Origin: Lutimonas halocynthiae
GTDB taxonomy: Bacteria; Bacteroidota; Bacteroidia; Flavobacteriales; Flavobacteriaceae
Assembly: GCF_030409835.1 (NCBI RefSeq)
Contig: NZ_JAUFQO010000004.1
Location: 620,001 to 684,000, forward strand
Length of the DNA stretch: 64,000 nucleotides
Reading direction: 5' to 3'
Both the position numbers and the translations under genes were made by a program. This document shows positions 3,858 through 50,729 of this stretch, piece by piece. The notes beneath the pieces are model-generated. The model was not told the origin of the DNA and ran no database searches. It was given only the letters and a program-made list of their open reading frames with translations. The stretch's first letter is position 1; every line of letters begins with the position of its first letter.

Positions 3858-3925
3858 GTCTAAAAGACTAAATCAATTATTATTCTATGTATAAATAAGT
3901 CTGAAAGAAATTGATTCAGAACATG

Positions 3926-3955: not shown

Positions 3956-4034
3956 AACTTTACCATAACGAAAACAATAAACGGGCAACATATAGGAGAA
4001 TAATTACGTTGTTTCTAACTAAACCCTCCTCATC

Positions 4035-5138: not shown

Positions 5139-5173
5139 AAATTTAATTTATATTTGGGGGAAAATCTATCCTA

Positions 5174-5674: not shown

Positions 5675-5752
5675 TAACTACATTTACCATAAACCACCCG
5701 CTTCAGGATTGCTGCCATCAAGAGCTCATTATGGTACTTTCTTAAGGCATAT

Positions 5753-5786
5753 CTATATTATCCTATCTAATTATAAGGTAATATAG
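5753..5786. promoter_or_regulatory. Imperfect inverted repeat upstream of the rightward hydroxyproline operon
   Basis: CTATATTA (5753-5760) and its exact inverse TAATATAG (5779-5786) flank a centre that extends the pairing by CCT/AGG with one bulged base. It lies 43 bases before the start codon of the operon. A -7-like TACTTTTA (7 of 8 matches) is at 5807-5814. The same octamer CTATATTA occurs in the promoter region of the AraC-type regulator gene (20927-20934), so this may be its operator. Confidence 0.35.
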
Positions 5787-5828
5787 GATTAATAGGAACT
5801 AATAATTACTTTTAATCAAAAAAGCCCA

Positions 5829-6779: not shown

Positions 6780-6808
6780 AATAGTAAGTTTAAACAATAG
6801 AAAAACGA

Positions 6809-7870: not shown

Positions 7871-7875
7871 ACGCT

Positions 7876-8790
7876 ATGCATATTGAACAAGTTGTTGATT
7901 CTAATAAGTTATTAGAATACATACATATTAGAAACGAAAAAGTATCTGCTAAGATATACCCAAATCTAGGTGCTAGCCTGCAGGAATTGATGATAAACGG
8001 CCTTAGAATAATTGATGGAATCAGCCATGACAATGAAGGACTCCTTGATTATCAATCCACTTATAGGTCGTCTGTTTTATTTCCTTTTCCAAACAGAATT
8101 GAAGATGGCGCTTATGACCACCTGGGGCAGTCACACCAATTCCCCGTCAATGAAAAACCATTAAACAATGCCTTGCATGGTCTTGTTTACAACAAACAAT
8201 TTAAGCTGATCAGTTCTGAGACTGCTGAAAACAGTGCCTCGGTTGTTTTGTCATATACATCAATCGGGAAAGAGCCTGGTTTCCCATTCCCCTTCGTACT
8301 TCTTTTAAGCTATCAGGTCAGTCACCAAGGAGAGGTTTCGTTAACATTTGATGTTGAGAATACTGGTGATGCTGCATTCCCAATGGGAATGGGATGGCAT
8401 CCTTATTTTGCTGTCAATAATTTAGAAAATTGTCAGCTCTCATTTCCGTCAAGGGACTTTTATAAATGTAACAATAGGAATTTACCCATACAGACGGTTA
8501 AATCAGATCTTTCGAAATCATTTAAAATGGATGGTAAAACTTTTGATGATGCCTATTCACTCGAAAAAGCTACCTGTCAATTCATTGCTGATAATTATGA
8601 GCTGGAACTAAAATTTGACTATCCTGAAGATACTTATCTGCAGGTATATACGCCACCTCATCGCAAAAATATTGCCATTGAACCCATGACTACTATTGCG
8701 AACAGCTTTAATCACAAAATAGGTTTCAAAGAATTATTACCTGGTGAAAAAGATCATTGGGCCATTGAATTACATATCAGCCTTTTTTAA
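7876..8790 (+). CDS. Aldose 1-epimerase (galactose mutarotase-like)
   Basis: A 304-residue galactose mutarotase-fold protein. Recognisable are FPFPNRI (about 69-75), the histidine in NALHGLVYN (His101), GMGWHPYF (His175) and IAIEPMTTIANSFNH near the C-terminus, which holds the likely catalytic glutamate. It interconverts alpha and beta anomers of aldoses in the cytoplasm. It sits 5 bases after the 3-hydroxyproline dehydratase gene and 11 before the kinase/phospho-lyase fusion gene. In an operon for collagen amino acids its likely job is handling galactose or glucose released from glycosylated hydroxylysine; that is inference. Confidence 0.85.
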   Translation: MHIEQVVDSNKLLEYIHIRNEKVSAKIYPNLGASLQELMINGLRIIDGISHDNEGLLDYQSTYRSSVLFPFPNRIEDGAYDHLGQSHQFPVNEKPLNNALHGLVYNKQFKLISSETAENSASVVLSYTSIGKEPGFPFPFVLLLSYQVSHQGEVSLTFDVENTGDAAFPMGMGWHPYFAVNNLENCQLSFPSRDFYKCNNRNLPIQTVKSDLSKSFKMDGKTFDDAYSLEKATCQFIADNYELELKFDYPEDTYLQVYTPPHRKNIAIEPMTTIANSFNHKIGFKELLPGEKDHWAIELHISLF

Positions 8791-8801
8791 CGACTGATTT
8801 T

Positions 8802-11800
8802 ATGGAAGAACTCAACTATGATAACATATTAATCAAGCCGAAAAAAGCTGAAGAAATTCTTTTTCAGCAATACGGAATCAAAGGAGAAGCAAGCCCTCTT
8901 CCGGGAGAATATGACATGAATTTTAAAATTCGTGTTGACAAAAAAGATAGCTATATCTTGAAAATTTCAAGACCCGGGGTAGCAATAGAAGAATTAGATT
9001 TTCAACAAAAATTGCTACAACACCTGGCTAAAAGTAAAACAGAATTATTGGCGCCAGAACCCTTCTTGGATCTTTCTTCTGAGCTCATCGCTAAGGTCAT
9101 AGATGATTATGGACGACAAAGACACACGAGGTTACTCAGTTGGATTCCAGGCCGAATGTACTATCAGATAAATCCACAAAGAGATTCTTTGAGGCTTAGT
9201 TTAGGAGAGTCTTGTGGTAAACTCACCAAAGCCCTCGAGAATTTTGATCATCCAAGTGCGCACAGAATATTTGAGTGGGATCTTGCAGCATCTTTATGGA
9301 CCAGCTCACAGCTTGAACTGTTCAATGATGATCAGCAAAGAATCTTGCAATACTTTCAAAATCGATTTAAAAAGGCGCAGAAAGGATACAAATTATTGAG
9401 AAAGTCGGTGATACATAATGATCCCAATGATCATAATGTCATTGTATCATCAGATCTCAAAACGCCTGAGGTATTAGCGGCAATTGATTATGGAGATGCT
9501 ATCTATACCCAATCCATAAATGATCTTGCCATTACATGTGCTTATGGCATCATGAATCAGGAAGATCCTTTATCGGCATGTGTAGCCATCATTTCAGGTT
9601 ATAACAAAAGCTGGCCAATTCTTGAAAAAGAACTTGGTTTTCTATATGATTTAATCGCCATGAGGCTCGTCATCACGGTTACAAAATCTGCCATGAACAA
9701 GATTCAGGAGCCAGACAATGTCTATTTACAAGTTAGCGAAGCCAAAGCATGGGATGTATTATGGAAGTGGGAAAGTCTCAGTGCTGATTTTGTACATTTT
9801 AGCATCAGAAATGCTTGTGGCTTTTCCGGACATCCTCAAGAAGCTGCGTTTGTCAAATGGGCATCTCAAACCAAGCTGCGTATTGAAACACTTTTTCCCA
9901 GTCGCAAGTCAAAAGATTGCCTTACTCTTGACCTGAGTGTTTCGAGTAAATGGTTAGGGCATTTAAGTGATTTTGCAGATTTTGATCTTTTTGAATTTAA
10001 AATCAACAAACTTCAGCAGCAACATCCTGATAAAATTATAGCAGGCGGTTATCTCGAACCTCGAATGGTTTATACAACAGATGCCTATATGAAAATGGGC
10101 AATGAAAGGCCGGAGAGCAGAACTATACATCTTGGAATCGATTTTTGGCTACCGCCTGAAACGCCAGTACACAGTTTATTGCCTGGAGAAATCATCGTGG
10201 CAACCAATGATGAAGGAGATAAAGAATACGGTGGTTTAATCATTCTAAAACACCAGATAGATGACCTGACTTTTTATAGTCTCTATGGACACCTATCCGT
10301 TAAAAGTGCGCTTGCCAGAAAAGTGGGAGAAAAAGTTGCGCCTGGTGAATTACTTGCTTATTTGGGTGATTATCCTGAAAATGGGAACTGGCCACCTCAT
10401 CTTCATTTTGAACTCATGCTCTCTTTATTAGATTATGATATTGATTTCCCGGGGGTAGCCTATAAAAGTGAGCTGGAAGTCTGGAGGAGTTTATGCCCTG
10501 ATCCTAATTTGCTTTTTAAATTAGAAAGCCTAAAACCCTCTATATCTTTATCAAATTCAGACATCGTCTCCTACCGGAAAGAGCATTTGGGTAAGGGAAT
10601 GAGTTTGTCTTATGATGAACCTATCCAGATCGTTCGTGGATTAGGGGCTTATTTGATAGATCAATTCGGAACGAGTTATCTGGATACGGTAAACAATGTG
10701 GCCCATGTAGGCCATGAACATGTAGCAGTAGTCAAAGCTGGGCAAGAGCAAATGGCCTTGTTGAACACCAATACAAGATACTTACATGAGAACATCCGCA
10801 TACTGGCAGAAGCACTTTTGGAAACCTTTCCGCCAGAATTATCAGTTGTTCATTTTGTGAACTCCGGTAGTGAGGCCAATGAACTTGCATTACGAATGGC
10901 AAAAGTTGTTACTGGCAAAAAAGATATACTGGCATCAGAAATGGGCTATCATGGAAATACCAATGCCTGCGTAGAAATCAGTTCCTATAAGTTTGACGGA
11001 AAAGGAGGAAGTGGTTGCCCTGAGCATACACACTTGATTCCTATGCCAGATAGCTTTAGAGGAAAATACAGAGGTGTAGATTCAGGTGAAAAATATGCTC
11101 ATGAAGTTGACCTTACAATTCAATCCCTTTTAAAGGCCGGAAAAGCGCCAGCGGCATTTATTATTGAACCCATTATTAGTTGTGGAGGCCAAATTGAATT
11201 ACCTAAAGGGTTCTTAGGCAAGGCTTACGAGCATGTCAGAAACACTGGTGGACTTTGTATTTCAGATGAAGTGCAGGTTGGCTGTGGCAGAATAGGATCG
11301 ACTTTTTGGGGTTTTCAACAACACGATGTTATTCCTGACATTGTGACGATTGGAAAACCCTTAGGGAATGGCCATCCTGTAGCTGCTGTTGTTTGCACCA
11401 GAGCTGTTGCTGATGTATTTGCGAATGGCATGGAATATTTTAATACTTTTGGTGGTAACCCAGTGTCTTGTGCAATTGCCACTGAAGTTTTACAAACCAT
11501 TAAAAGAGAAAAACTGCAAGAAAATGCGCTTGAAGTGGGTAACTTCTTAAAGAAAGAACTCCTTAAAATTTCTAAAGATTTTGCCATTATTAAGGATGTA
11601 AGAGGCCAAGGTTTGTTTTTAGGCATTGAATTAACAGACAATGCGCTAAATCCCTTAGCTGATCTAACAGCCTATCTGGCAAATCGCATGAAAGACCTCG
11701 GTATTTTAATGAGCGTTGACGGCCCTGATCACAATGTTTTAAAGATCAAACCTCCTATGGTTTTTTCAAAGACTAATGCAGAACAGGTTTTACTCGGGCT

Positions 11801-11837
11801 AAAAAAAGTTCTTTCAGAAGACTATATGAAAATCTAA
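8802..11837 (+). CDS. Tri-domain fusion: APH-type kinase, M23-like domain, class III aminotransferase-fold phospho-lyase (probable hydroxylysine kinase/phospho-lyase)
   Basis: A 1011-residue fusion without signal peptide. Residues 1-340 are an aminoglycoside phosphotransferase-like kinase with catalytic loop HNDPNDHN (His205-Asn212, Asp207) and metal site AIDYGD (Asp229). Residues 400-560 are an M23/LytM-like domain with intact zinc ligands: HLGID (His443, Asp447), YGHLS (His497) and HLHFE (His533, His535). Residues 590-1011 are a class III aminotransferase-fold PLP domain, with the internal lysine in TIGKPLGNG (Lys852) and the phosphate-stacking SDEVQVGCGR. The human homologues of the two enzyme halves are hydroxylysine kinase and 5-phosphohydroxylysine or phosphoethanolamine phospho-lyase. 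Beside hydroxyproline genes, hydroxylysine is the likelier substrate; ethanolamine is the main alternative. The role of the M23 domain is unknown. Confidence 0.8.
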   Translation: MEELNYDNILIKPKKAEEILFQQYGIKGEASPLPGEYDMNFKIRVDKKDSYILKISRPGVAIEELDFQQKLLQHLAKSKTELLAPEPFLDLSSELIAKVIDDYGRQRHTRLLSWIPGRMYYQINPQRDSLRLSLGESCGKLTKALENFDHPSAHRIFEWDLAASLWTSSQLELFNDDQQRILQYFQNRFKKAQKGYKLLRKSVIHNDPNDHNVIVSSDLKTPEVLAAIDYGDAIYTQSINDLAITCAYGIMNQEDPLSACVAIISGYNKSWPILEKELGFLYDLIAMRLVITVTKSAMNKIQEPDNVYLQVSEAKAWDVLWKWESLSADFVHFSIRNACGFSGHPQEAAFVKWASQTKLRIETLFPSRKSKDCLTLDLSVSSKWLGHLSDFADFDLFEFKINKLQQQHPDKIIAGGYLEPRMVYTTDAYMKMGNERPESRTIHLGIDFWLPPETPVHSLLPGEIIVATNDEGDKEYGGLIILKHQIDDLTFYSLYGHLSVKSALARKVGEKVAPGELLAYLGDYPENGNWPPHLHFELMLSLLDYDIDFPGVAYKSELEVWRSLCPDPNLLFKLESLKPSISLSNSDIVSYRKEHLGKGMSLSYDEPIQIVRGLGAYLIDQFGTSYLDTVNNVAHVGHEHVAVVKAGQEQMALLNTNTRYLHENIRILAEALLETFPPELSVVHFVNSGSEANELALRMAKVVTGKKDILASEMGYHGNTNACVEISSYKFDGKGGSGCPEHTHLIPMPDSFRGKYRGVDSGEKYAHEVDLTIQSLLKAGKAPAAFIIEPIISCGGQIELPKGFLGKAYEHVRNTGGLCISDEVQVGCGRIGSTFWGFQQHDVIPDIVTIGKPLGNGHPVAAVVCTRAVADVFANGMEYFNTFGGNPVSCAIATEVLQTIKREKLQENALEVGNFLKKELLKISKDFAIIKDVRGQGLFLGIELTDNALNPLADLTAYLANRMKDLGILMSVDGPDHNVLKIKPPMVFSKTNAEQVLLGLKKVLSEDYMKI

Positions 11838-11844
11838 AAAATAA

Positions 11845-12276
11845 ATGATGAAAAATCTAATCTTACTAATCAGTATTGTCTGTTTAAATTCTGTTTCAAC
11901 ACTCGCACAAAACGCGGATAAAGAAGCGATAAAAAACCTGCTTGAAGTTCAAAGGCAAGCCTGGAACAACTACGATATTGATGGGTTTATGGAAGGCTAT
12001 TGGAAATCTGAAGACCTAAAGTTCTATGGAAGTAACGGTGTTACCTATGGATGGGACAATACCCTAGCACGTTATAAAAAAGCCTATCCCACAAAAGAAC
12101 ATTTTGGCACTTTAGAATTTGTTCTTAATGAAATATCCATCATAGATGAGGGCTCTTACTATGTTATGGGAGAATACCATTTGAAAAGAACCATGGGCAA
12201 TGCCGATGGAATTTTTATGCTCATTCTTAAAAAAATCAAAGGAGAATGGAAGATCATTGCAGACACTTCCAGTTAA
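11845..12276 (+). CDS. Secreted DUF4440/SnoaL-like protein
   Basis: A 143-residue protein with a cleavable signal peptide (MMKNLILLISIVCLNSVSTLAQ, cut about residue 22) and an NTF2-like fold of the DUF4440 kind: NLLEVQRQAWNNYDIDGFME at the start, GWDNTLARYKKAYP in the middle and GEWKIIADTSS at the end. Such small cone-shaped domains bind varied ligands and a few are enzymes; no function can be assigned. It lies 7 bases after the fusion gene and is part of the operon. Confidence 0.75.
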   Translation: MMKNLILLISIVCLNSVSTLAQNADKEAIKNLLEVQRQAWNNYDIDGFMEGYWKSEDLKFYGSNGVTYGWDNTLARYKKAYPTKEHFGTLEFVLNEISIIDEGSYYVMGEYHLKRTMGNADGIFMLILKKIKGEWKIIADTSS

Positions 12277-12303
12277 TCAACTCCTATTATGAATCGAATC
12301 TAA

Positions 12304-12777
12304 ATGAATATGATGTATTCCATCCGAAAAGCGACCTTGGCTGATTTGCCGCTACTTCTTGAATTTGAGCAGGCTTTGATAAAAGTGGAACGCCCCATGG
12401 ACAGCACTATCAAAGAAGGTGAAGTTTCATACTACGATATTGCTGACTTTATAAAACAAACAGACACTGAAGTGTTGGTTGTAGAATGCAATTCAAAGAT
12501 TGTAGCTTCTGGCTATGCTCAGATAAAGGCTGACAGACACTATTTAAAGCATGATTTACAGGGTTATCTCGGTTTTATGTATGTTGATGAGGCTCATAGA
12601 GGTCAAGGACTAAACAAGCTCCTGATTGAAGATTTAATTCAGTGGTGTAAAGAAAGAGACGTCAATGAAATAAGACTGGCTGTATATCAAGACAATCCTT
12701 CGGCCATCAAAGCCTATGAAAAAGTCGGCTTCAAGAAACATCTTATAACCATGCGTTTGGATGCTTCCGACTATTAA
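12304..12777 (+). CDS. GNAT-family N-acetyltransferase
   Basis: A 157-residue acetyltransferase with the acetyl-CoA loop EAHRGQGLNKLLIE (about 97-110) preceded by the strand GFMYVD, and DNPSAIKAYEKVGFKK near the C-terminus. It is the last gene of the rightward operon, 27 bases after the DUF4440 gene. Its TAA stop overlaps the TAA stop of the convergent Xaa-Pro aminopeptidase gene within TTAA. Given the operon, an amino acid or amine substrate is possible, but nothing in the sequence names it. Confidence 0.85.
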   Translation: MNMMYSIRKATLADLPLLLEFEQALIKVERPMDSTIKEGEVSYYDIADFIKQTDTEVLVVECNSKIVASGYAQIKADRHYLKHDLQGYLGFMYVDEAHRGQGLNKLLIEDLIQWCKERDVNEIRLAVYQDNPSAIKAYEKVGFKKHLITMRLDASDY

Positions 12778-14069
12778 GCGCCAGCCATCAAACGTTCAAT
12801 ATCCTCTATTTCAATTGGCATGTTTGCTGTCAAGTTAATATTCCCCCCAGAGGTTAATAAGTAATCGTTTTCAAGTCTGCAACCAATACCTTCCTCCGGA
12901 ATATAAATACCCGGCTCACAGGTGAGTACCATTCCTGCTTCAAAAGGTCTTGAGTACAATCCCACATCGTGAACATCCAATCCAATATGATGGGCCGTGC
13001 CATGCATAAAATATTTCTTATAAAGTGGCTGATCAGGATCTTGCTTGGCAATATCAGCCGATGTTAATAAGCCCAGACCTATTAGTTCTTTTTCAACTAA
13101 AGCTGCCATGTCTGCTTCATACTTTTCTGACACCACACCTGGTTTCAGCAAGGCTGACCCTTTCTTTAAACAATTTAATACTGCCCGATATACTTCCTTT
13201 TGACGTGCAGAAAATTTTCCATTCACAGGAAAGCATCTGGTGGTATCTGAATTGTAATTGGCATAACAAACCCCAAAATCCATGAGTATCATATCACCAT
13301 CCTGGCAAAGGTCATCATTGTCGTTATAATGCAAAGCACAAGCATTTTTACCCGATGCTACAATTGGTTTAAAAGCGTGTCTTATAGCACCATTTTTAAA
13401 GAACACATAAGTCAGTTCTGCCTCAAGTTCATATTCTTTTATTCCTGGCTTTACTTTCTTCAAAACGCGCTCAAAACCTTTTATACTGATATCCGCAGCT
13501 TGCTGAATCATTTGAACCTCTTCTTCAGATTTCACCTGTCTTAGCCCGCGGGTCAGTTTAGCTGCCCTGTCATAGACGTGCAAAGGATATTGTTTTCTGC
13601 ACCATTTGATCAATCGGTCTTGTTGTGTCTCTAATTCGCGGGTGGCTCTTTTTAAGTGCTCATTATGTCCAAGAAAAAATGCATCCGCTTCAAAGGCCAC
13701 CGATTGCAGAATTTTTTCAAAGTCTTCTGTCCACTCAATTCTTTTAATCCCTGAAATTGTCGAAGCTTCAGTTTTTGTTAATTTTTCACCTTCCCATACT
13801 TTGATATGATCATCCGTTTTTTTAATAAAAAGGATCTCTTTGTTTTCTTGCTTACTTGCATCAGGATATAATAACAAGGTTGATTCTTCCTGATCAATCC
13901 CTGACAAATAGAAAAGGTCATTATTCTGAGCAAATCCCATGCTATCATCGGCATTGGTATATTGCACATCATTTGAACAAAGCAAAGCAATGGCATTCGA
14001 ACTCATCGCAGCACCAAAATTATTTCTATTCTTGATATAAAGACGGTTAGGTAAAGCTTGGTATTTCAT
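12774..14069 (-). CDS. Xaa-Pro aminopeptidase (M24B family)
   Basis: A 431-residue metallopeptidase with an N-terminal AMP_N domain (residues 1-145) and a C-terminal pita-bread domain. Metal ligands are seen in MDFGVCYANYNSDTTRCF (two Asp), HGTAHHIGLDVHD (His), TCEPGIYIP (Glu) and GCRLENDYLL (Glu). It removes the residue before a proline at peptide N-termini, a step needed for collagen-derived Gly-Pro-Hyp peptides, which fits its place as the last gene of the hydroxyproline operon, 14 bases after the FAD oxidoreductase gene. It has no signal peptide and should act on peptides in the cytoplasm. Confidence 0.9.
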   Translation of the reverse strand: MKYQALPNRLYIKNRNNFGAAMSSNAIALLCSNDVQYTNADDSMGFAQNNDLFYLSGIDQEESTLLLYPDASKQENKEILFIKKTDDHIKVWEGEKLTKTEASTISGIKRIEWTEDFEKILQSVAFEADAFFLGHNEHLKRATRELETQQDRLIKWCRKQYPLHVYDRAAKLTRGLRQVKSEEEVQMIQQAADISIKGFERVLKKVKPGIKEYELEAELTYVFFKNGAIRHAFKPIVASGKNACALHYNDNDDLCQDGDMILMDFGVCYANYNSDTTRCFPVNGKFSARQKEVYRAVLNCLKKGSALLKPGVVSEKYEADMAALVEKELIGLGLLTSADIAKQDPDQPLYKKYFMHGTAHHIGLDVHDVGLYSRPFEAGMVLTCEPGIYIPEEGIGCRLENDYLLTSGGNINLTANMPIEIEDIERLMAGA

Positions 14070-39890: not shown

Positions 39891-40424
39891 TCAATTATGA
39901 TTAGCATAAACCTCTTTCGTTAAATCAAGAATAAGATCAACCGCCTTTGGAATTGCCTGAGCCACATTATTCGAAAGTTCGAGCGTCATCGGCTTCATTT
40001 CATTAATCGTGATTGTAATTAATTGAATTTCGGGCTTTTTATCTAATAAATACACCGCTTCAATCATGTCTTTTAACCCAACATCATGCACACTTAAAGC
40101 TGTAGGAAAATCAGATGCAAACTTAGGCTTGATCAATGAAATTGTTCCTTCTTTCTTGCCGTCCATAGTTGCATCCACAAATATAATCTGTCCATAAGCC
40201 TCTATACAACTCAAAAGCAAAAAGCCACCAGTACCACCGTCAAGAATATCAATATTTGATGGTAGTTGCATGTTATTCATATGCTGAATCAACTGCACTC
40301 CAACTCCTTCGTCACCCATTAAGTAATTTCCTATTCCAAGGATCAATATACTTTCTGACTTGTCTTTTTCAAAAAAGTAAGCATCACTGCTTATAGCAAC
40401 AGGAACTCTTTGATCATCTTTCAT
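39891..40424 (-). CDS. hyaD: Hydrogenase maturation endopeptidase for the membrane-bound enzyme (HyaD/HupD-like)
   Basis: A 177-residue protease of the HyaD/HybD family with LILGIGNYLMGDEGVGVQLI (Glu/Asp nickel-sensing residues), ILDGGTGGFLLL and the histidine in SVHDVGLKDMIE. It cuts the C-terminal tail from the large subunit after nickel insertion. A 24-residue N-terminal extension (MKDDQRVPVAISSDAYFF) precedes the usual start. It is placed after hyaC in the leftward order and must serve HyaB, because hoxW for HoxH is separate. A large hairpin at 40444-40493 lies just upstream of its start. Confidence 0.9.
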   Translation of the reverse strand: MKDDQRVPVAISSDAYFFEKDKSESILILGIGNYLMGDEGVGVQLIQHMNNMQLPSNIDILDGGTGGFLLLSCIEAYGQIIFVDATMDGKKEGTISLIKPKFASDFPTALSVHDVGLKDMIEAVYLLDKKPEIQLITITINEMKPMTLELSNNVAQAIPKAVDLILDLTKEVYANHN

Positions 40425-40443
40425 TCTCTTCTTTTTAATAAAA

Positions 40444-40493
40444 TTAGGCTTGCCATAAAGTTTAATGACAATGACCCTTTATGGCAAGCCTAA
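40444..40493 (-). terminator. Strong hairpin between hyaC and hyaD
   Basis: A perfect 17-bp stem (40444-40460 with 40477-40493; core GGCTTGCCATAAAG) has a 16-base loop. On the leftward transcript it is followed by TTTTATT, so it resembles an intrinsic terminator. It ends 19 bases before the hyaD ATG, with no room for a separate promoter after it. It may be a partial terminator or a 3'-stabilising structure that lets the structural genes hyaABC be expressed more than the maturation genes. Confidence 0.6.
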
Positions 40494-40541
40494 AAATTAA
40501 CTAACACAACTAAATCAAATAAGCATTGAGATTTAGTCTCC

Positions 40542-41264
40542 TCAAATATGCTCATCATCTTCAAAACGCTCTTTCCTCACAAATTTATAACCACTTATCA
40601 TCGCTGATGATTCTCCTCTGCCTTCTAACCAATCATGGTAAAAAACCAGATAAACATGAATCAAAGTAAATATGATAAATAACCACGTTGACATATGATG
40701 TATAAATCGCGTTGTCATTTCATCGCCCAATATACTTGGTACCCATGCAAACAATTTTGGCAACCACCAACCAGAAGTCGGTGCGTATAGACCAAAACCT
40801 GTAAATATCTGTACCAAGGCTAAAAGGAATAAAATGATATAAGAAAAAGAAGCTACGTAATTATGGCCCACACTAATATTTTTCAGCACCTCAGTTTCTT
40901 CATTTTGTAATAAAACATCCACTTTTAAGACATGTTTAATATTGTCCCATTTTTGTTTGGTTAAAGGTAAAAAGGCCCTCCAATTAGAATAATAATTTCC
41001 ATTAAATGCCCAGTATACCCTGACAATTGCATTTAAAAGAAACACATAAGCCGTAACAAAATGTATGGTTCTTACCGTACCAAACCAATATGAATCTACA
41101 GCCTCAGCTGTTGACATCAAAGCTGGCGGGTCTGCAATAATAAATCCGGTTATCGCAAGAACAGTAATACAGAGCGCATTAAGCCAGTGGAAAATCCTTA
41201 CAGGTAATTCCCAAACCAACACTCTTTTAAAGTCATAAGTCTTACTATATGTTGTATCCATCAC
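40542..41264 (-). CDS. hyaC: NiFe-hydrogenase b-type cytochrome subunit (HyaC)
   Basis: A 240-residue membrane cytochrome b with four helices. Heme-ligand candidates are the histidines in PVRIFHWLNALCI, VRTIHFVTAYVF, and RFIHHMSTWLFIIFTLIHVYLVFYHDW. The end GRGESSAMISGYKFVRKERF is the classic HyaC/HupC signature. It links the periplasmic hydrogenase dimer to the quinone pool. It is encoded 13 bases after the large subunit gene. Confidence 0.93.
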   Translation of the reverse strand: MMDTTYSKTYDFKRVLVWELPVRIFHWLNALCITVLAITGFIIADPPALMSTAEAVDSYWFGTVRTIHFVTAYVFLLNAIVRVYWAFNGNYYSNWRAFLPLTKQKWDNIKHVLKVDVLLQNEETEVLKNISVGHNYVASFSYIILFLLALVQIFTGFGLYAPTSGWWLPKLFAWVPSILGDEMTTRFIHHMSTWLFIIFTLIHVYLVFYHDWLEGRGESSAMISGYKFVRKERFEDDEHI

Positions 41265-41277
41265 TCTAAATCATAAA

Positions 41278-43011
41278 TTATATATCACAACTACCTACAT
41301 TACTCACACGTGAAATGTGATTCCCATGTTCATCATAAAGATGTACTGCACAAGCAAGGCAGGGGTCAAATGAATGCACCGTCCGGATGATCTCAAGCGG
41401 AAGATTAGGATCTGCAACAGGCGTATCCAATAGCGCTGATTCATAAGCTGATCTTTGACCTGAAGGATCTCGTGGAGAAGCATTCCAGGTAGTAGGAACT
41501 ACCTGCTGGTAATTTTCAGTTTTCCCATCTTTAATGGTAATCCAGTGTGCTAAAGCTCCTCTAGGGGCTTCTGTATAACCAACTCCTTTGGCTTCAGAAG
41601 GCCATTTTGATGGATCCCAAAGCTCCATATTTGCCATTCGTGAGTCACCGTTTTTTATATTCAACAACAATTGGTCATAAAATTCAATTGTCCAATTAGC
41701 CACTAGTTGCGACTCAATTCCTCTTGCAGCGGTTCTTCCTAAGGTTGAAAACAATGCCTCTACCGGAACGTCTAAATGTGTTAATGCGCCATTTACAACA
41801 TCTTGAATTTCTTTATTTCCTCTTCCATAACCAACAAGCAATCTCGATAATGGACCTACTTCCATGGCCTTACCTTTCCAGCGCGGGGTTTTGACAAAGC
41901 TGTATTTTTCCTCAACATTAAGGTGTTCATAAGGTGGTTGTGGTCCTGAATAATTGATATTGGTTTCTCCTTCCCAAGGATGCCTTCCAGATTCGGCTCC
42001 TTCTTTATAATTATCGTACCATGAATTATTAACAAATTCTTCTATATCTCCATTGCGATGATCTACATCATGTATCTTGGAAAGGTCTCGGTCAAGAATA
42101 ACCCCTTGTGGAAATTTAAAACCAGAAGGATCTCCATATCCATTCATCGGGAAATCTCCATACGACATATAATTTCCAACACCTTTTCCAATTGCACCCC
42201 AATCTTTATAGAATGAAGCAATGGCCAATAGGTCAGGAATATAAACCTGGTCAATAAAATCTTTTCCTTGCTTTAATAATTTACCAATATGGGCCAGACG
42301 CTCTGCATTTAATCCTCCCGTACTGTTTTCATTAATGGCACAAGCCATTCCACCAACCAAATAATTTGGATGCGGATTCTTACCGCCAAGAATAGTATGT
42401 ACTTTGACAATTTCCTTTTGCCATTCTAAAGCTTCAAGATAATGTGCTACAGCAAGTAAATTCACAGCAGCCGGTAATTTCATTTGAGGATGCCCCCAAT
42501 AGCCATTGGCAAATATGCCTAGCTGACCACTGTCAACAAATTTTTGAATTCGTTTTTGCACATCACTAAAGTAACCAGGAGAACTTTTGGGCCACTTGGA
42601 AATACTTTGGGCAATTTTTGAAGTTTCTGCAGGATCAGCGCTTAAAGCATTCACCACATCTACCCAATCAAGGGCATGAAGGTGGTAAAAATGAACTGCA
42701 TGATCATGCATATATAAAGCCCCTGCCATGATATTTCGAACCATTTCAGCATTGGGAGGAACCGCTATACCTAAGGCATCTTCAACTGCTCTTACCGAAC
42801 TGATCGCATGTACTGTAGTACAAACGCCACAGGTTCTTTGCACAAAGGCCCAGACATCTCTTGGATCTCTGCCTTTAACGATGTTTTCAAGCCCTCGAAC
42901 CATAGTACTCGAGCTATAGGCATCTACTATTTTTCCATCTTTTATTTCGGCTTCAATCCTTAAATGTCCCTCAATCCTGGTAATAGGATCTACAACTATT
43001 CTGTTTGCCAT
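41278..43011 (-). CDS. hyaB: NiFe-hydrogenase large subunit, group 1 uptake type (HyaB)
   Basis: A 577-residue catalytic subunit. The nickel-binding motifs are RTCGVCTTVHA (Cys61, Cys64) and DPCLACAVH (Cys551, Cys554). Cleavage after His557 would remove a 20-residue tail LYDEHGNHISRVSNVGSCDI. Length and motif spacing fit the membrane-bound group 1 enzymes, which oxidise hydrogen in the periplasm. There is no signal peptide; the subunit should travel with the Tat-exported small subunit encoded 6 bases upstream. HyaD is the expected processing protease. Confidence 0.96.
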   Translation of the reverse strand: MANRIVVDPITRIEGHLRIEAEIKDGKIVDAYSSSTMVRGLENIVKGRDPRDVWAFVQRTCGVCTTVHAISSVRAVEDALGIAVPPNAEMVRNIMAGALYMHDHAVHFYHLHALDWVDVVNALSADPAETSKIAQSISKWPKSSPGYFSDVQKRIQKFVDSGQLGIFANGYWGHPQMKLPAAVNLLAVAHYLEALEWQKEIVKVHTILGGKNPHPNYLVGGMACAINENSTGGLNAERLAHIGKLLKQGKDFIDQVYIPDLLAIASFYKDWGAIGKGVGNYMSYGDFPMNGYGDPSGFKFPQGVILDRDLSKIHDVDHRNGDIEEFVNNSWYDNYKEGAESGRHPWEGETNINYSGPQPPYEHLNVEEKYSFVKTPRWKGKAMEVGPLSRLLVGYGRGNKEIQDVVNGALTHLDVPVEALFSTLGRTAARGIESQLVANWTIEFYDQLLLNIKNGDSRMANMELWDPSKWPSEAKGVGYTEAPRGALAHWITIKDGKTENYQQVVPTTWNASPRDPSGQRSAYESALLDTPVADPNLPLEIIRTVHSFDPCLACAVHLYDEHGNHISRVSNVGSCDI

Positions 43012-43017
43012 GGTGAT

Positions 43018-44154
43018 TTATTTTTCTTCGTTTTTATCTAAGTGTTCTTCATTGATTTTACCTCTCGAATAGCGGCCTTTCAATTCCTTGTATTTTGATA
43101 CATTCGCTACAATTGAATGAGCAGTCAATCCAGCTGCAACTGCTCCTGTAGCAATTATTCCAACCTTGTCTGCTGTACTTTCTATTCCAAATCCAGGCAC
43201 ATTGGTCATCCGTTTATAAAATGGCCCATTATCCCAGAAATTGGCTTCACTGCATCCTATACAGCCATGCCCTGATTCAATAGGAAAACTTGTACCGTTA
43301 TTCCACTTCATACTGGCACAGGCATTGTAAGTAGAAGGTCCTCTGCAACCAAGTTTATATAAACAATATCCTTCTTTTGCATTAACATCATCAAATGTTT
43401 CTGCAAAAAGACCAGCATCAAAATAAGGCCTTCTGTAACAGGTATCGTGCACTCGTTTTCCATAAAATGCTTTAGGTCTTCCTGACCTGTCAAGTTCAGG
43501 TAATCTTTCAAATGTCACATAGTGAACAATCAATGCCGCCATTGCTTCTCCAATTGGTGGGCAGCCAGGCATTTGAATTATGGGTTTATTTTTGATAATC
43601 TTATGAATTGGAGTTGCCCCAGTTGGATTTGGTTTTGCGCCTTGCACGCATCCATTAGTAGCGCAACTTCCCCAGGCAATTATAGCCTTTGCACCTTCAG
43701 CTGCTTCTTTTAAATGCTCAAGTGCGGTTTTACCTGCAATGGTACAATACACTCCGTTTGCCCCCATAGGAACAGATCCTTCAACACATAAAATGTATTC
43801 CCCATGGTATTTTTTCATGGTATCGTGTTTGGCAGCCTCTGCCTGATGCCCTGAAGCAGCCATAAGGGTTTCTGTATAATCCAAAGATATATTGTCAAGG
43901 ATAATATCAGCAACCATAGGATGATCAGACCTGATAAATGACTCACTGCAACAAGTACATTCTTGATAATGCTCCCAGATGATTGGAAGTCTGTGTTTGG
44001 TTTCCAAAGAATTCGCAACTTGCCCTATCATAGAGTTTTCCAAGCCCATATAGGCTGAAATGAAAGCCGCAAACTTCATAAAATCCCTTCGATTATAACC
44101 CTTTCTTATTGCACTTTCATAGTAGGTTTCTCTATGCCCGTCTTTTGTAGCCAT
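43018..44154 (-). CDS. hyaA: NiFe-hydrogenase small subunit, oxygen-tolerant type (HyaA)
   Basis: A 378-residue iron-sulfur subunit with a Tat signal (NRRDFMKFAAFISAYMG). Proximal-cluster cysteines are Cys66, Cys68, Cys69 (ECTCCSESF), Cys164 and Cys169 (GSCATNGC) and Cys198 (PGCPP). As I recall E. coli Hyd-1 numbering (17, 19, 20, 115, 120, 149), every spacing is identical with an offset of 49. The two extra cysteines (68 and 169) form the 4Fe-3S cluster that makes such enzymes oxygen tolerant. Distal and medial cluster motifs lie in VHDTCYRRPYF to GHGCIGCSEANFW. A C-terminal membrane helix (about 333-353) anchors it. Confidence 0.95.
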   Translation of the reverse strand: MATKDGHRETYYESAIRKGYNRRDFMKFAAFISAYMGLENSMIGQVANSLETKHRLPIIWEHYQECTCCSESFIRSDHPMVADIILDNISLDYTETLMAASGHQAEAAKHDTMKKYHGEYILCVEGSVPMGANGVYCTIAGKTALEHLKEAAEGAKAIIAWGSCATNGCVQGAKPNPTGATPIHKIIKNKPIIQMPGCPPIGEAMAALIVHYVTFERLPELDRSGRPKAFYGKRVHDTCYRRPYFDAGLFAETFDDVNAKEGYCLYKLGCRGPSTYNACASMKWNNGTSFPIESGHGCIGCSEANFWDNGPFYKRMTNVPGFGIESTADKVGIIATGAVAAGLTAHSIVANVSKYKELKGRYSRGKINEEHLDKNEEK

Positions 44155-44302: not shown

Positions 44303-44644
44303 ATGCATGAGTTATCAGTGGTTATGGGGATACTAAAAATCGCTGAAACAGAGGCTGAAAAAGCCGGTGCGAAGACAGTTGATCTTATCGAGTTGGAAAT
44401 AGGCAGTTTAGCGGGTATTGAACTTGATGCCCTGGATTTTGTCTGGCCCGGTGCTGTAAAGGATACTGTATTAGAGAATGCTGTCAGAAAAATTGACCTA
44501 ATTGAAGGCAAAGGTCACTGCATGGAATGCGATCTCATTTTCTCCTTAGAACATGTTTATGATCCTTGTCCGAGCTGTCAAAACTATCTTAAAGGAATTA
44601 TTCAAGGTAAAGAGCTCAGAGTAAAAGCACTTGAAGTTACTTAA
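44303..44644 (+). CDS. hypA: Hydrogenase nickel metallochaperone HypA
   Basis: A 113-residue protein starting MHELSVVMGIL, with the nickel-binding Met-His-Glu N-terminus. A zinc site is formed by Cys73-x2-Cys76 (GHCMECDLIF) and Cys89-x2-Cys92 (DPCPSCQNY). HypA delivers nickel, with HypB, to the large-subunit precursor. It begins a rightward group and is divergent from hyaA; the gap of 148 bases holds the shared palindrome. hoxF follows after 129 bases with its own control site. Confidence 0.95.
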   Translation: MHELSVVMGILKIAETEAEKAGAKTVDLIELEIGSLAGIELDALDFVWPGAVKDTVLENAVRKIDLIEGKGHCMECDLIFSLEHVYDPCPSCQNYLKGIIQGKELRVKALEVT

Positions 44645-44773: not shown

Positions 44774-46597
44774 ATGGCTGCTCCAAAAAACCCCCCGCCA
44801 AAATCCTCTTTGATGGATATTCTATGGGATATTCAAAAAAAAAGACGGTACATCGCTCCTGATGACATGACAAAAATTGCCAGTGAATTTCATATTTCCA
44901 GAACAGAACTGGAAGGCATTGTTTCGTTCTATCATTTTTATCACCGCTCACACGCGGGTAACTTTACAATTTATTTGAACAACGGTATTATTTCTAAGCA
45001 ACGTAATTACGATGTTGTCAAAAAAACCTTTGAAAAAGAACTGGGCATCTCTGTGGGAGAAACCACTGATGACAAATTATTTGGCTTGTTTGAGACCTCA
45101 TGTATAGGATTAAGCGACCAGGAAACTTCTGCTTTGATCAATTTTCAAGCTTTTACTGATCTAACTCCAATTAAGGTTAAGAATATTATTGGTCAATTGA
45201 GAAAAGGTGCAAATCCTGAATCGCTTAGCACATTTCCAAAAAACAACATCCAGTATACTCCTGCGAAAGACAAAACTATTTTTTTTAAGCCCTATACGCC
45301 AGGATCCAGCTTAAAAAAATTAAGAAAAATATCTCCTGATCAGCTCATCGATATAGTGAAAAAGTCAAAATTATCAGGTCGAGGCGGCGCCTTCTTCCCT
45401 ACTGGAATGAAATGGGAGTTCTGCAAAAATAATATAGCCGATCAAAAATATATCATTTGCAATGCTGATGAAGGTGAGCCAGGAACCTTTAAAGACCGGG
45501 TTCTTATGAATAAACACCCTGGGTTAATGCTTGAAGGAATGGCAGCAGCTGCCTATGCGGTTGGAGCCACTTATGGCTATATCTATCTCCGTGCCGAATA
45601 TTTCTATCTCAGAGATAAAATTCAAGAAGAAATACAGCATTTCAGGACCAAAGGATTTCTGGGGAAAAATATTCTGGGCATAACCGGATTTGACTTTGAT
45701 ATTCATATCCATATGGGTGCAGGAGCCTATGTCTGTGGAGAAGAAACTGCTTTAATCAGTTCCATGGAAGGCAAGAGAGGAGAACCTTCAACTAAAGAGT
45801 ATTTTCCGGTAGAAAAAGGACTATACGGAAAACCTACTATAATCAATAATGTTGAAACCCTTTGCGCCGTCCCAAGAATCCTGAATATGTCTCTTAAGTC
45901 ATATTTAAAAATTGGGACTGAAGCCACAAAAGGAACCAAATTATTAAGTGTATCAGGTGATTGCAAAAAACCAGGTATTTATGAGATTGAATGGGGAATG
46001 AAACTCAAGCAATTTCTAAAGCTTATTGAAGCCGAAAACCCTTATATGATTCTGTTTAACGGTTATGCCGGAGAATGCCTTTCTGCAGCTGATTTTGACC
46101 GGGAAATCTCCGGTGAAAATTTATTAGCTGAACAGGTGCAGTTCAAATGGGAAGATCCAATAGAATACGCTAGAAAAATGAGTGCCATAGGCCTGAGAAG
46201 CGGCGGTTCATTTATGGTTTTCAATGACAAAAGAGACCTCATGCCGATATTCAAGAACATTAGCGACTTTTTTGTTTCAGAGTCATGTGGTATCTGTGCG
46301 CCTTGCAGAACAGGTAATTTTTTACTTACTAAGAAACTAAAAAAGATCATGCTTTGCCATGCAGAAAAATCTGATTTGGAGGATCTTGAAAAATGGAGCA
46401 CCATTATAAAACAATCCAGCCGATGCGGATTAGGGAAAACCTCCACGAACTGCTTGCTTTCGGCTATGCTTAAGTTTCCGCAGGAGTTTAATAAATGTAT
46501 TCTTGCTAAAAGCGACTTCAACAAATCATTTGATATTAAAAATGTGACCCTAGAATACGATACCATTATTAATGAAATTGAAAAAGTCCATGGATAA
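44774..46597 (+). CDS. hoxF: NAD-linked hydrogenase diaphorase subunit HoxF
   Basis: A 607-residue NuoE-NuoF-like fusion. The NuoE-like part (about 1-145) retains ETSCIGLSDQETSALI but has only one cysteine, so the usual four-cysteine 2Fe-2S site is lost. The NuoF-like part shows GRGGAFFPTGMKW (about 202, NADH), CNADEGEPGTFKDR (about 229, FMN) and the 4Fe-4S site ESCGICAPCRTGNF (about 501) with SSRCGLGK downstream. It passes electrons between NAD(H) and the hydrogenase module in the cytoplasm. The open frame extends to a TTG at 44768, but the ATG at 44774 is preferred. Confidence 0.93.
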   Translation: MAAPKNPPPKSSLMDILWDIQKKRRYIAPDDMTKIASEFHISRTELEGIVSFYHFYHRSHAGNFTIYLNNGIISKQRNYDVVKKTFEKELGISVGETTDDKLFGLFETSCIGLSDQETSALINFQAFTDLTPIKVKNIIGQLRKGANPESLSTFPKNNIQYTPAKDKTIFFKPYTPGSSLKKLRKISPDQLIDIVKKSKLSGRGGAFFPTGMKWEFCKNNIADQKYIICNADEGEPGTFKDRVLMNKHPGLMLEGMAAAAYAVGATYGYIYLRAEYFYLRDKIQEEIQHFRTKGFLGKNILGITGFDFDIHIHMGAGAYVCGEETALISSMEGKRGEPSTKEYFPVEKGLYGKPTIINNVETLCAVPRILNMSLKSYLKIGTEATKGTKLLSVSGDCKKPGIYEIEWGMKLKQFLKLIEAENPYMILFNGYAGECLSAADFDREISGENLLAEQVQFKWEDPIEYARKMSAIGLRSGGSFMVFNDKRDLMPIFKNISDFFVSESCGICAPCRTGNFLLTKKLKKIMLCHAEKSDLEDLEKWSTIIKQSSRCGLGKTSTNCLLSAMLKFPQEFNKCILAKSDFNKSFDIKNVTLEYDTIINEIEKVHG

Positions 46598-47858
46598 AAA
46601 GATAAAAATCAATATCGATGGTAACGAATACCAGGTATTGGAAAATAAAAAACTAGTAGATGTTGCCAAGAAAAATGGCATCTATATTCCTACGCTTTGT
46701 CATTTCAGAGAAATCGAACCTTCTCTTGGCACTTGCAGGATATGCACCGTGATGGTTAACGGAAAATTCACAACAAGTTGCACTACCAAAGTAAAAGAAG
46801 GTATGCATGTGGAGATCAATACTCCCGAGCTGATTGATACGCGTAAGGCCATTATTGAAATGTTATTCGCCGAAGGCAACCATTTTTGCCCTTCCTGTGA
46901 AAAAAGTGGCAATTGCGATCTGCAAAATCTTGCTTATGATATGGGCCTAACCTTTTCACGTTTCCCCCATGTATTCAGCAATAAATATGTGGATTTTAAT
47001 CCAAAAAGAATGATCATGGAGGCGAACAGATGCATCCTCTGTAAGCGTTGTGTAGAGGAAATTCAGACTACTGATGGAATGGATATCTTTTCGTTTGTTA
47101 ACCGGGGCGTGAATACCAGAGTTCATATTGATTATGAGCAAGAAGAAAAACTTACTGAAGCTGAAGCTTTACACGCTATGAATCTTTGTCCGGTTGGTGC
47201 CATTCTCGTCAAGGGTATGATTTACAAACAGCCTTTCGGGGACAGAAAATATGATATCCTTGGGAAAACAAAACAAACAGATCCGGGAGAATTATGCGCC
47301 TTAAAATATGAAGACGAAAAATTCATAGTCGCAACTACTTCTTTAGCAGGTTGCTTTGGATGTCATATGTCACTGCTTGATATCGATACAGAACTCATTG
47401 ATTTATTGGAGATCGTCGAGTTTAATAAATCACCCCTCACCGATATTAAAAAATTCAGCAAGCGCTGCCATGTGGGTTTAATCGAAGGCGGGGTTGCCAA
47501 CTCAGAAAACGTAGAAGTGCTGAAAGAATTCAGAAAGAAATGTGACATACTTATCGCATTCGGCGAATGTTCTATAATGGGCGGAATTCCTGCTATGAGA
47601 AACTTTTTCTCCTTAAAAGACTGTCTGGAAGAAGCTTACATTCATGGCGTAACAAGTGAAATTGGAGCCAACACCATTCCAAATCACGAAGACATTCCAA
47701 AATTGCTAAATAATGTTTATCCCTGTAATGAAGTGGTTAAAATCGATTACTTCATTCCTGGGTGTCCTCCAAATGCCAATCATATCTGGAAAGTTGTAAA
47801 AAGTATACTCCTGGGTAAGGAATTTCCGGTTATGCATGAAGAATTTAAATATGATTAA
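46590..47858 (+). CDS. Fusion of HoxU (diaphorase) and HoxY (hydrogenase small subunit)
   Basis: A 422-residue protein joining two subunits that are separate in known Hox enzymes. Residues 1-235 are HoxU-like: 2Fe-2S site (LCHFREIEPSLGTCRICTV, then TTSC), HxxCxxC-type site HFCPSCEKSGNC, and 4Fe-4S sites RCILCKRCVEE and LCPVGAI. Residues 245-422 are HoxY-like: proximal-cluster motifs LAGCFGCHMSLLDID (about 252), FGECSIMGGIP (about 325) and IPGCPPN (about 390). The ATG at 46590 overlaps the hoxF stop by 8 bases; an in-frame ATG at 46572 is less likely. The fusion would fix diaphorase and hydrogenase modules together. Confidence 0.93.
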   Translation: MDKKIKINIDGNEYQVLENKKLVDVAKKNGIYIPTLCHFREIEPSLGTCRICTVMVNGKFTTSCTTKVKEGMHVEINTPELIDTRKAIIEMLFAEGNHFCPSCEKSGNCDLQNLAYDMGLTFSRFPHVFSNKYVDFNPKRMIMEANRCILCKRCVEEIQTTDGMDIFSFVNRGVNTRVHIDYEQEEKLTEAEALHAMNLCPVGAILVKGMIYKQPFGDRKYDILGKTKQTDPGELCALKYEDEKFIVATTSLAGCFGCHMSLLDIDTELIDLLEIVEFNKSPLTDIKKFSKRCHVGLIEGGVANSENVEVLKEFRKKCDILIAFGECSIMGGIPAMRNFFSLKDCLEEAYIHGVTSEIGANTIPNHEDIPKLLNNVYPCNEVVKIDYFIPGCPPNANHIWKVVKSILLGKEFPVMHEEFKYD

Positions 47859-47868
47859 ATAGCTTAAA

Positions 47869-49323
47869 ATGAGTCGAAAAATAGTCATAGATCCTGTTAC
47901 GCGAGTAGAAGGACACGGAAAGGTTACTATTCACCTTGATGAAAATAATAAAGTAAAAGATTCCTTTTTTCATATTGTTGAGTTTAGAGGATTCGAGAAA
48001 TTCATTCAGGGCCATCCTTATTGGGAAGCCCCTGTCATGGTTCAGAGATTGTGCGGTATTTGCCCCGTTAGTCATCACCTGGCGGCAGCAAAAGCCATTG
48101 ATCAGATTGTAGGATTAGAGCCTGAAGATTTGTCAATCACAGCACAAAAAATCAGAAAGCTCCTGCATTATGCTCAGATTTTCCAATCTCATGCCCTTCA
48201 CTTCTTTTACCTGGCATCTCCCGATCTTTTATTTGGAGCAGATGCAAGTCCAAGCAGAAGAAATGTTGTCAGTGTAGCAATGGAATATCCTGAACTAGCA
48301 AAAAAAGGTATCCTGATGCGCAAATTCGGGCAGGAAATCATCAAAATGATTGCGGGTAAAAGAATTCATGGGATCTCGGCAACTCCGGGAGGCGTGCATA
48401 AAAAAATAAGCGCACAAGAAAGAGATTACTTCCTAAATGGAAAAGAAATACCTTCAATTGATGCAATGATTGAATGGTCTAAAGAAATTATCGAATTCAT
48501 TAAGGTATACCATTCAAAAAACCAAGAATGGTTTAATCAATTCGCAGCCTTTCCTTCGGGCCACTTAGGTTTGGTAAATAAAACAACCGGTGACCTGGAA
48601 TTATATGATGGTTATTTGAGGGCCATTGATGCATCAGGTAAAATCACTTTAGATGATATTCATTCTGATACCTATCAAAATCATTTTTACGAAGGAGTTG
48701 AAAAATGGTCTTATCTTAAGTTTCCATATTTAAAACATCTCGGCAGAGAAAGGGGCTGGAACAGAGTTGGCCCACTCGCAAGAATGAATGTCTGTGAGGG
48801 AATTTCTACGCCACTTGCTGCATTTGAAAGATTGTCATTCTTGAATGCGACCCTGGGAAAAACTAATAATGCATCCATGTACTCTCATTGGGCAAGATTG
48901 ATTGAACTGCTGCATTGTGCAGAACTCATGAAAGACCTGCTTGAAGATGACGATATTTTGAGTAATGACCTTGTCAGAAGAGGGGTTAGAAGAAGTGAAG
49001 GAATTGGTATTATAGAGGCTCCTAGAGGCACATTGATCCACCATTATCAGGTAGACGAAAAGGATAGAATTACACGCTGTAACCTTATCGTTTCGACGAC
49101 GCATAACAACGAGGCTATGAATCAGGCGGTCAAATGGGTTGCCAATGAAGTCATCGATGGCAATCAAAAAGTTAGTGAAGGAATGTTAAATCAAGTTGAA
49201 GTTGCCATTAGGGCCTATGATCCTTGTCTTAGCTGTGCCACCCATGCGATGGGTCAGATGCCCTTGGAAATTTCTTTATTCGATCATCTTGGAAATTTAA
49301 CCGATGTCAAAAGAAGGAACTAA
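47869..49323 (+). CDS. hoxH: NAD-linked NiFe-hydrogenase large subunit HoxH
   Basis: A 484-residue catalytic subunit of the group 3 bidirectional type. Nickel motifs are RLCGICPVSHH (Cys62, Cys65) and DPCLSCATH (Cys453, Cys456). Processing after His459 would remove a 25-residue tail beginning AMGQMPLEISLF. The protein is shorter than HyaB, as expected for HoxH, and has no signal peptide, so it works in the cytoplasm with the HoxU-HoxY fusion and HoxF. The hoxW gene overlaps its last 20 bases. Confidence 0.95.
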   Translation: MSRKIVIDPVTRVEGHGKVTIHLDENNKVKDSFFHIVEFRGFEKFIQGHPYWEAPVMVQRLCGICPVSHHLAAAKAIDQIVGLEPEDLSITAQKIRKLLHYAQIFQSHALHFFYLASPDLLFGADASPSRRNVVSVAMEYPELAKKGILMRKFGQEIIKMIAGKRIHGISATPGGVHKKISAQERDYFLNGKEIPSIDAMIEWSKEIIEFIKVYHSKNQEWFNQFAAFPSGHLGLVNKTTGDLELYDGYLRAIDASGKITLDDIHSDTYQNHFYEGVEKWSYLKFPYLKHLGRERGWNRVGPLARMNVCEGISTPLAAFERLSFLNATLGKTNNASMYSHWARLIELLHCAELMKDLLEDDDILSNDLVRRGVRRSEGIGIIEAPRGTLIHHYQVDEKDRITRCNLIVSTTHNNEAMNQAVKWVANEVIDGNQKVSEGMLNQVEVAIRAYDPCLSCATHAMGQMPLEISLFDHLGNLTDVKRRN

Positions 49324-49783
49324 AGATATACTGGTCATCGGAATTGGGAATTCAGGTCGAAGTGACGACGGTCTGGGCTGGTTAATGCTTGACTATATTA
49401 AAAATATTTTTTTAGATGTAGACTTATTGTTTCGGTATCAGTTACAGATAGAAGATGCAGAATTGCTTTCTCATTATCGAACCGTAATTTTTATTGATGC
49501 CACCAAAAAAGCTACCGAGAGCGGCTTCTATTTCAAATCATGCCAACCAAATAATGGATTCGGGCTCACTTCTCACATGCTTGAGCCTGAGACCATACTT
49601 TGGTTAGAAAACGAATTATATAAGACGGGGCCTACTACTTTTATAATGGGGATTGAAGGCGAAAAATGGGGCCTGTCTCTTGAACCCAGTGAAATGGGTT
49701 TGCTAAACCTAGACAAGGCTACTAACTTTCTCGAAAAAAATCTAAACCTAATATTAACGAAGAAAACCCCGTGTTTGCTATAA
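49304..49783 (+). CDS. hoxW: Hydrogenase maturation protease for HoxH (HoxW-like)
   Basis: A 159-residue protease of the HycI/HoxW kind with DILVIGIGNSGRSDDGLGWL (residues 8-27), a central FIDATKKA strand and a histidine in FGLTSHMLEPETIL. It should trim the HoxH C-terminal tail once nickel is in place. It overlaps hoxH by 20 bases, so translation is coupled. Its stop codon lies inside a small hairpin (49772-49793). Confidence 0.9.
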   Translation: MSKEGTKDILVIGIGNSGRSDDGLGWLMLDYIKNIFLDVDLLFRYQLQIEDAELLSHYRTVIFIDATKKATESGFYFKSCQPNNGFGLTSHMLEPETILWLENELYKTGPTTFIMGIEGEKWGLSLEPSEMGLLNLDKATNFLEKNLNLILTKKTPCLL

Positions 49784-49859: not shown

Positions 49860-50729
49860 ATGTGTGGCACTTGTGGATGTGGAAGTCCTGACGGGCATAT
49901 TTCTATACAAAAACCTGGGGCAGATCTTCATGATCACAACCATCATCATGATCATACACATGATGAACATACACATCAGCACTCTCATCACGAGCACAAT
50001 CATGATCACGATCATAGTCATTCTCATTCACATGATCATTCACATGTTCATGTCAAGAAGACCGTTATAGAAGTACAACAAGACATCCTGCAACACAATG
50101 ACCTAATGGCATCAAGAAACAGAGGTTTTTTTGAAGCAAAAGAACTTTATGTCATTAATCTGGTCAGTTCCCCTGGTTCGGGGAAAACAAGTATTCTGGA
50201 AAGAACGCTAATAGATCTTAAAGACCAACTTGATTTTGCAGTTATTGAAGGTGATCAACAAACCCTGCAAGATGCGAATCGCATAGATGCGATTAATGTG
50301 CCTGTAATCCAGATCAACACAGGTAAGGGCTGTCATCTGGAAAGCGATATGGTACATGATGCTGTAAAACAATTAGCGCCTAAAGACGGATCTGTTTTAA
50401 TGATAGAAAACGTAGGTAATTTGGTTTGTCCATCAATGTTCGATTTGGGCGAACGGAAAAGAGTTGTAATTATCAGTACAACTGAGGGCGAGGATAAGCC
50501 CTTAAAATATCCCGACATGTTTTTAAGTTCTGATATATGTATCATCAATAAAATAGACTTATTACCCTATTTAGATTTTGACCTTAATAAATTGAAATCT
50601 TACGCTCTACAGGTCAATCCAAAACTTGAATTTTTCGAAGTTTCAGCTACCAAGGGCGAAGGAATGGAAACCTGGTATGAGTGGCTCAAAAAAGAACAAA
50701 GTAATTTAAAGCAAAAATCACAAATTTAA
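49860..50729 (+). CDS. hypB: Hydrogenase nickel-incorporation GTPase HypB with His-rich domain
   Basis: A 289-residue GTPase. It begins with the high-affinity nickel motif MCGTCGCGS, followed by a histidine-rich stretch (about residues 20-68, over 25 histidines), then the G domain: P-loop SSPGSGKTSILE (about 102), VIEGDQQTLQDA, NVGNLVCP and INKIDLLPYLDF (G4). The histidine domain stores or buffers nickel in related proteins. It provides nickel with HypA. It has its own promoter region and is followed by hypC after 11 bases. Confidence 0.95.
   Translation: MCGTCGCGSPDGHISIQKPGADLHDHNHHHDHTHDEHTHQHSHHEHNHDHDHSHSHSHDHSHVHVKKTVIEVQQDILQHNDLMASRNRGFFEAKELYVINLVSSPGSGKTSILERTLIDLKDQLDFAVIEGDQQTLQDANRIDAINVPVIQINTGKGCHLESDMVHDAVKQLAPKDGSVLMIENVGNLVCPSMFDLGERKRVVIISTTEGEDKPLKYPDMFLSSDICIINKIDLLPYLDFDLNKLKSYALQVNPKLEFFEVSATKGEGMETWYEWLKKEQSNLKQKSQI

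Follow-up and report, generated by a model that had tools for sequence, protein, structure and literature searches.

The soluble NAD-linked hydrogenase of Lutimonas halocynthiae carries HoxU and HoxY, two subunits that are separate in related enzymes, on a single predicted polypeptide (HoxUY). Among the sequences compared, the fusion is confirmed as a real and conserved architectural variant: the join itself, its conservation, the retention of the cluster ligands and, within the sample, a single origin are all established at this level. In the window (the whole stretch of 64,000 nucleotides that was analysed), positions 46590-47858 of the forward strand form one open frame that holds a whole HoxU, a linker of 21 residues and a whole HoxY (Table 1). 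The reading frame extends over 46572-47858; with the ATG at 46590 as its start, it overlaps HoxF by a few bases at the HoxF stop. No stop and no frameshift occur inside it. The original prediction placed the junction at 47300-47350. The linker overlaps the upstream end of this estimate but begins earlier.

Table 1. Hox genes, HoxUY segments and maturation genes in the window (positions counted from its first nucleotide).
Feature	Position	Strand	Remarks
HypA nickel metallochaperone	44303-44644	+	upstream of HoxF; family-model match
HoxF	44774-46597	+	NuoE-like N-terminal domain fused to NuoF-like FMN/NADH domain; start codon uncertain
HoxU part of HoxUY, residues 1-222	46590-47255	+	[2Fe-2S], His-ligated [4Fe-4S] and a further [4Fe-4S] motif (C148-C154, C200)
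Inter-domain linker, residues 223-243	47256-47318	+	ILGKTKQTDPGELCALKYEDE; in-frame ATG/GTG/TTG absent
HoxY part of HoxUY, residues 244-422	47319-47855	+	hydrogenase small subunit; proximal [4Fe-4S] cysteines C255, C258, C327, C392
Stop codon of hoxUY	47856-47858	+
HoxH, [NiFe] large subunit	47869-49323	+	both CxxC motifs; C-terminal extension as in Cupriavidus HoxH
Hydrogenase maturation protease, HoxW-like	49304-49783	+	weak match just below the curated cut-off; sits after HoxH
HypB nickel-insertion GTPase	49860-50729	+	family-model match

Both halves of the protein are clearly recognizable. The Pfam domains Fer2_4 (residues 3-78), NADH-G_4Fe-4S_3 (85-123), Fer4_Nqo3 (143-205) and Oxidored_q6 (255-404) follow one another on one chain, and the HoxU model of NCBIfam matches residues 6-211 with an E-value of 5e-53, under the curated cut-off of that model. 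In the PDB, residues 17-223 align to HoxU (5xf9_B, E = 2.9e-38) and residues 243-422 to HoxY (5xf9_C, E = 4.5e-49) of the soluble hydrogenase (SH) of Hydrogenophilus thermoluteolus. All 16 expected cluster ligands are present: C37, C49, C52, C64, H98, C100, C103, C109, C148, C151, C154, C200, C255, C258, C327 and C392. Each of them is invariant in the 46 fused proteins aligned, including the last four, which form the one proximal cluster of the HoxY part and match 5xf9_C. The AlphaFold model is of middling confidence (pLDDT 72), with low values in the linker and in parts of HoxY. Its N-terminal half matches the HoxU of 5xf9 (Z = 15.8) and its C-terminal half matches [NiFe] small subunits (e.g., 5odi_E and 9e1j_A); the model supports both folds, not their relative placement. 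The fusion that had been proposed, with all cluster cysteines in one frame, is thus borne out for a NAD-linked hydrogenase of the group 3d type.

The same join is encountered far beyond this genome. All 86 readable junctions, taken from collection-scan loci and from loci of the genome searches (a few may be one genome under two labels), are fused in frame. The search for other proteins spanning HoxU and HoxY, suggested with the original prediction, returned the fusion in one frame at every one of the 80 best loci of the collection scan; in one of these (L083), the contig end cuts the HoxU part. Named isolates of Lutimonas, Maribacter, Yeosuana, Winogradskyella, Phaeodactylibacter and Robiginitalea are among the carriers. 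A join of two genes by an assembly or sequencing error is refuted by these data and has a negligible probability, as the same in-frame junction recurs at 86 loci in many assemblies, isolate genomes included; this also excludes a missed stop or frameshift at the junction.

The linker is the variable part of the protein. Over the 86 junctions, its length is 20-27 residues (median 22), with a single one of 48, and its sequence is hypervariable with almost nothing conserved; no conserved motif was found in these junctions or in the 46 aligned proteins. HoxUY might nevertheless be a precursor that is cut after assembly, or HoxY might also be produced from an internal start, so that the working enzyme would have four chains. 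Cleavage after translation is conceivable for a chain predicted from sequence, and many loci do contain an in-frame ATG, GTG or TTG in or near the linker, a few of them with a Shine-Dalgarno-like motif. However, the linker lacks a conserved motif, that of the window offers no codon from which a separate HoxY could start, and in our own count neither the window nor 23 other loci have an in-frame start up to HoxY residue 12. An internal start was rejected on this last ground, and a four-chain working enzyme is altogether improbable.

The gene order HoxF-HoxUY-HoxH-protease-HypB is that of a soluble hydrogenase of the Cupriavidus type, and its HoxF-HoxUY-HoxH-protease part is kept in nearly all fused loci. 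HoxH contains both NiFe-ligand motifs (LCGIC and DPCLSCATH) and has 5xf9_D as its best PDB match (E = 5e-154). In the HoxH tree, it is placed with the Cupriavidus SH and apart from the cyanobacterial-type Hox enzymes (100/100 for the 50-row SH side), although the Cupriavidus row sits on a long branch and its exact place within the SH side is unsure. The label "bidirectional", which had been given to the enzyme and denotes the cyanobacterial type, is to be replaced: the enzyme belongs to the Cupriavidus-type soluble hydrogenases. Its diaphorase module is complete, with an FMN/NADH-binding HoxF and a NuoG-like HoxU with cluster ligands. The NuoE-like domain of HoxF has a degenerate [2Fe-2S] site that keeps one of four cluster cysteines in the alignment. 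This is as expected, because SH enzymes do without that cluster (PMC3189943).

In every tested feature except the separate-chain architecture, the predicted enzyme is an ordinary SH-type hydrogenase. The canonical HoxFUYH composition of four chains, with separate HoxU and HoxY, is not found: one frame encodes both in the window and at every fused-clade locus read. As anticipated in the original prediction, the enzyme would consist of three chains (HoxF, HoxUY and HoxH) with its two modules covalently joined. Its predicted reaction would be the H2-dependent reduction of NAD+. An insertion of ~24 residues is present in HoxF at ~46090-46170, after AADFDREISGEN; it is common to most flavobacterial relatives and absent from the other HoxF proteins of the fused clade and from unfused HoxF.

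Genes for HypD, HypF and a HypE-like protein lie in the same window, beside a second [NiFe]-hydrogenase, one of the membrane type that includes a cytochrome b. The latter (small subunit, large subunit, cytochrome b and protease) occupies positions 39891-44154 of the reverse strand, divergent from the Hox operon. It is highly conserved beside the Hox operon in many flavobacterial relatives, with a large subunit that is mostly 80-97% identical.

The fused gene itself is not part of the HoxH tree. There, the fused enzymes group together as one clade (100/99, present in 100% of the bootstrap trees), whose sister group consists of unfused Bacteroidota SH and Lichenicola. The HoxU, HoxY and concatenated trees agree with this clade (96-99), as does a quick HoxH tree. 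Fused rows were picked by their likeness to the window protein, but for the unfused rows genomes were drawn without bias; outside the Bacteroidota, the thin sampling comprises three hox loci on plasmids and sequences from the PDB. Because the fused enzymes form one clade and their closest Bacteroidota relatives have two genes, the sequences point to one fusion event within the sample, without reversal; indeed, none of the fused-clade loci has returned to two genes. A single origin of the fused SH is considered highly probable.

In these closest unfused relatives, hoxU ends with a stop and hoxY follows with its own ATG, usually preceded by a Shine-Dalgarno-like motif; the HoxY protein begins M-x-K-P-(V/I)-(V/I)-A-T-like. 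The unfused HoxU usually carries a C-terminal tail, PIGSD(I/L/V)... or PIGSD/E, directly after the last conserved HoxU motif (e.g., L163-L166, L189-L197, L144 and L156). This tail is missing from every fused protein and is not obvious in Cupriavidus. The fusion would have arisen in a Bacteroidota SH by loss of the hoxU/hoxY stop region, a variable tether of ~22 residues replacing the PIGSD tail. From then on, it would have been handed down by descent and, at times, probably moved from one lineage to another: some transfer is likely, since the flavobacterium Robiginitalea marina falls among Cytophagales sequences.

Two further candidates were rejected. A second, independent fusion in G1184 (open frame 454) has a TGA between the U and Y parts. 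Four loci with a single in-frame stop (G552, G1173, G1175 and G1180) are not broken fusions: the stop is followed by an own ATG and they fall outside the fused clade, so they are ordinary two-gene loci. In three unfused loci (L189, L193 and L194), HoxF is preceded at a distance of ~0.7 kb by a gene for a distant second large subunit (27% identity to HoxH).

How widespread the fusion is had been left open. It is not a one-off: one clade of hydrogenases, found over several orders of the Bacteroidota, carries it throughout the phylum as a fixed trait. In the even samples, fused genes were found in 7/395 Bacteroidota genomes and 4/395 genomes of the class. Within the genus of the window, a full-length fused match was obtained in 13 of 21 relatives and a fragment at a contig end in a further one. 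In the class of G157, the fusion occurs in ten genomes (families f36 and f38), and the two genes are separate in families f136 and f44.

HoxUY is proposed to act as a single-chain Fe-S wire in a NAD-linked soluble [NiFe]-hydrogenase of the Cupriavidus SH type. By homology, electrons would run in either direction between the NiFe site (HoxH), the [4Fe-4S] cluster of HoxY, the HoxU clusters, FMN and NAD(H) (HoxF). The most likely effects of the fusion would be a diaphorase/hydrogenase stoichiometry fixed at 1:1 and a hydrogenase module that is not lost at the HoxU-HoxY interface. The SH of Rhodococcus opacus dissociates easily into HoxFU and HoxYH (PMC3189943), and the Hox complex of Synechocystis readily dissociates as well (PMC7363133). 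Once detached, HoxHY of R. eutropha loses much of its activity; moreover, supplying one module in trans yields ~50% activity, for which the authors blame poorer assembly (PMC3189943). The earlier statement that the modules could not dissociate holds for the sealed U-Y interface, where the split into HoxFU and HoxYH would be blocked, but does not extend to HoxF and HoxH. As these two are still bound non-covalently, the whole enzyme can come apart.

The benefit of the fusion would thus lie in secured assembly and electron transfer, and an advantage in assembly or stability is slightly favored. The non-covalent HoxF and HoxH count against it, as does the SH of R. eutropha, which is stable without a fusion (PMC3189943), and the unconstrained linker sequence could mean that the benefit is slight. 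The fusion may also be neutral, a chance loss of a stop in one ancestor that spread with its clade and brought no gain, the subunits already forming a stable complex. This explanation, somewhat less probable but to be taken seriously, agrees with the single origin in the trees, the hypervariable linker, the persistence of unfused SH sisters within the Bacteroidota and, again, the stable enzyme of R. eutropha. On the contrary, the absence of reversal and a linker length held at 20-27 residues in all loci but one speak against pure neutrality; they fit mild constraint, without proving a benefit.

In loci of two Winogradskyella species (L188, positions 4740-12989, and L023, positions 2179-9261), two tandem HoxF-HoxUY sets, one of the flavobacterial type and one Cytophagales-like, precede one HoxH. 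Every cluster ligand is intact in both HoxUY proteins, and a HoxH remnant was not seen between the sets. In Seonamhaeicola (L021), the first set keeps its own HoxH ahead of the second HoxF-HoxUY. Tandem sets before one HoxH might mean that diaphorase/wire units can be exchanged on a single catalytic subunit. That HoxUY evolved as a single-chain electron wire without the free diaphorase or hydrogenase states of other Hox enzymes, and as a chassis for more than one partner, is rather doubtful.

The SH of Cupriavidus necator H16, HoxFUYH(I2), shares the order F-U-Y-H-protease, the ligands and the degenerate NuoE-like HoxF domain, and is 48-51% identical to the window proteins over U and Y and 51% identical over HoxH. 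However, its hoxU and hoxY are two genes, read in different frames with a 4-nt overlap, its HoxY has a longer N-terminus, and the protease is followed by a cyclic-nucleotide-binding (HoxI) gene, which was not seen in the window operon. Of the solved structures, the NAD-reducing [NiFe]-hydrogenase 5xf9 comes closest to HoxY and HoxH and also gives the HoxU part its best structural match, but it is built of four separate chains. The unfused Bacteroidota SH (e.g., L163-L166 and L189-L197), a sister group with the same operon and 47-53% (U; 39% in L155) and 56-61% (Y) identity to the window, differ by a separate hoxU, usually ending in PIGSD..., and a hoxY with its own start. The cyanobacterial-type HoxEFUYH has the same functional modules, but its U and Y share only ~35% identity, its HoxE is separate from HoxF, and it forms a distinct branch in the HoxH tree. 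A HoxU/NuoG-like Fe-S domain is also fused to the catalytic side in [FeFe]-hydrogenase HydA and in the alpha chains of NAD-formate dehydrogenases; there, the partner is the catalytic subunit itself, with another catalytic fold, and not a [NiFe] small subunit. Among the PDB matches listed, no fusion of such a domain to a [NiFe] small subunit was found.

The new element is hence the fused HoxUY architecture; the SH-type enzyme itself is known. The original prediction allowed that such fusions might already be described as common. They are common in sequence data, but no mention was found in the literature searched, which covers few subscription journals and is weak evidence on this point.

Growth by the Calvin cycle driven by H2 is unlikely, since no RuBisCO large subunit was found in the genome; more likely, the host is a heterotroph in which the enzyme supplements NADH or serves as an outlet for reductant. 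Soluble NAD-reducing hydrogenases serve in H2-driven cofactor recycling, and in some species their weak point is the very interface that is sealed here. The fused SH of the Bacteroidota are therefore candidates for a more robust catalyst. Furthermore, the fusion is a clean one-event marker of a hydrogenase clade that extends over the phylum, and it offers a natural test for the role that free HoxFU and HoxYH play elsewhere.
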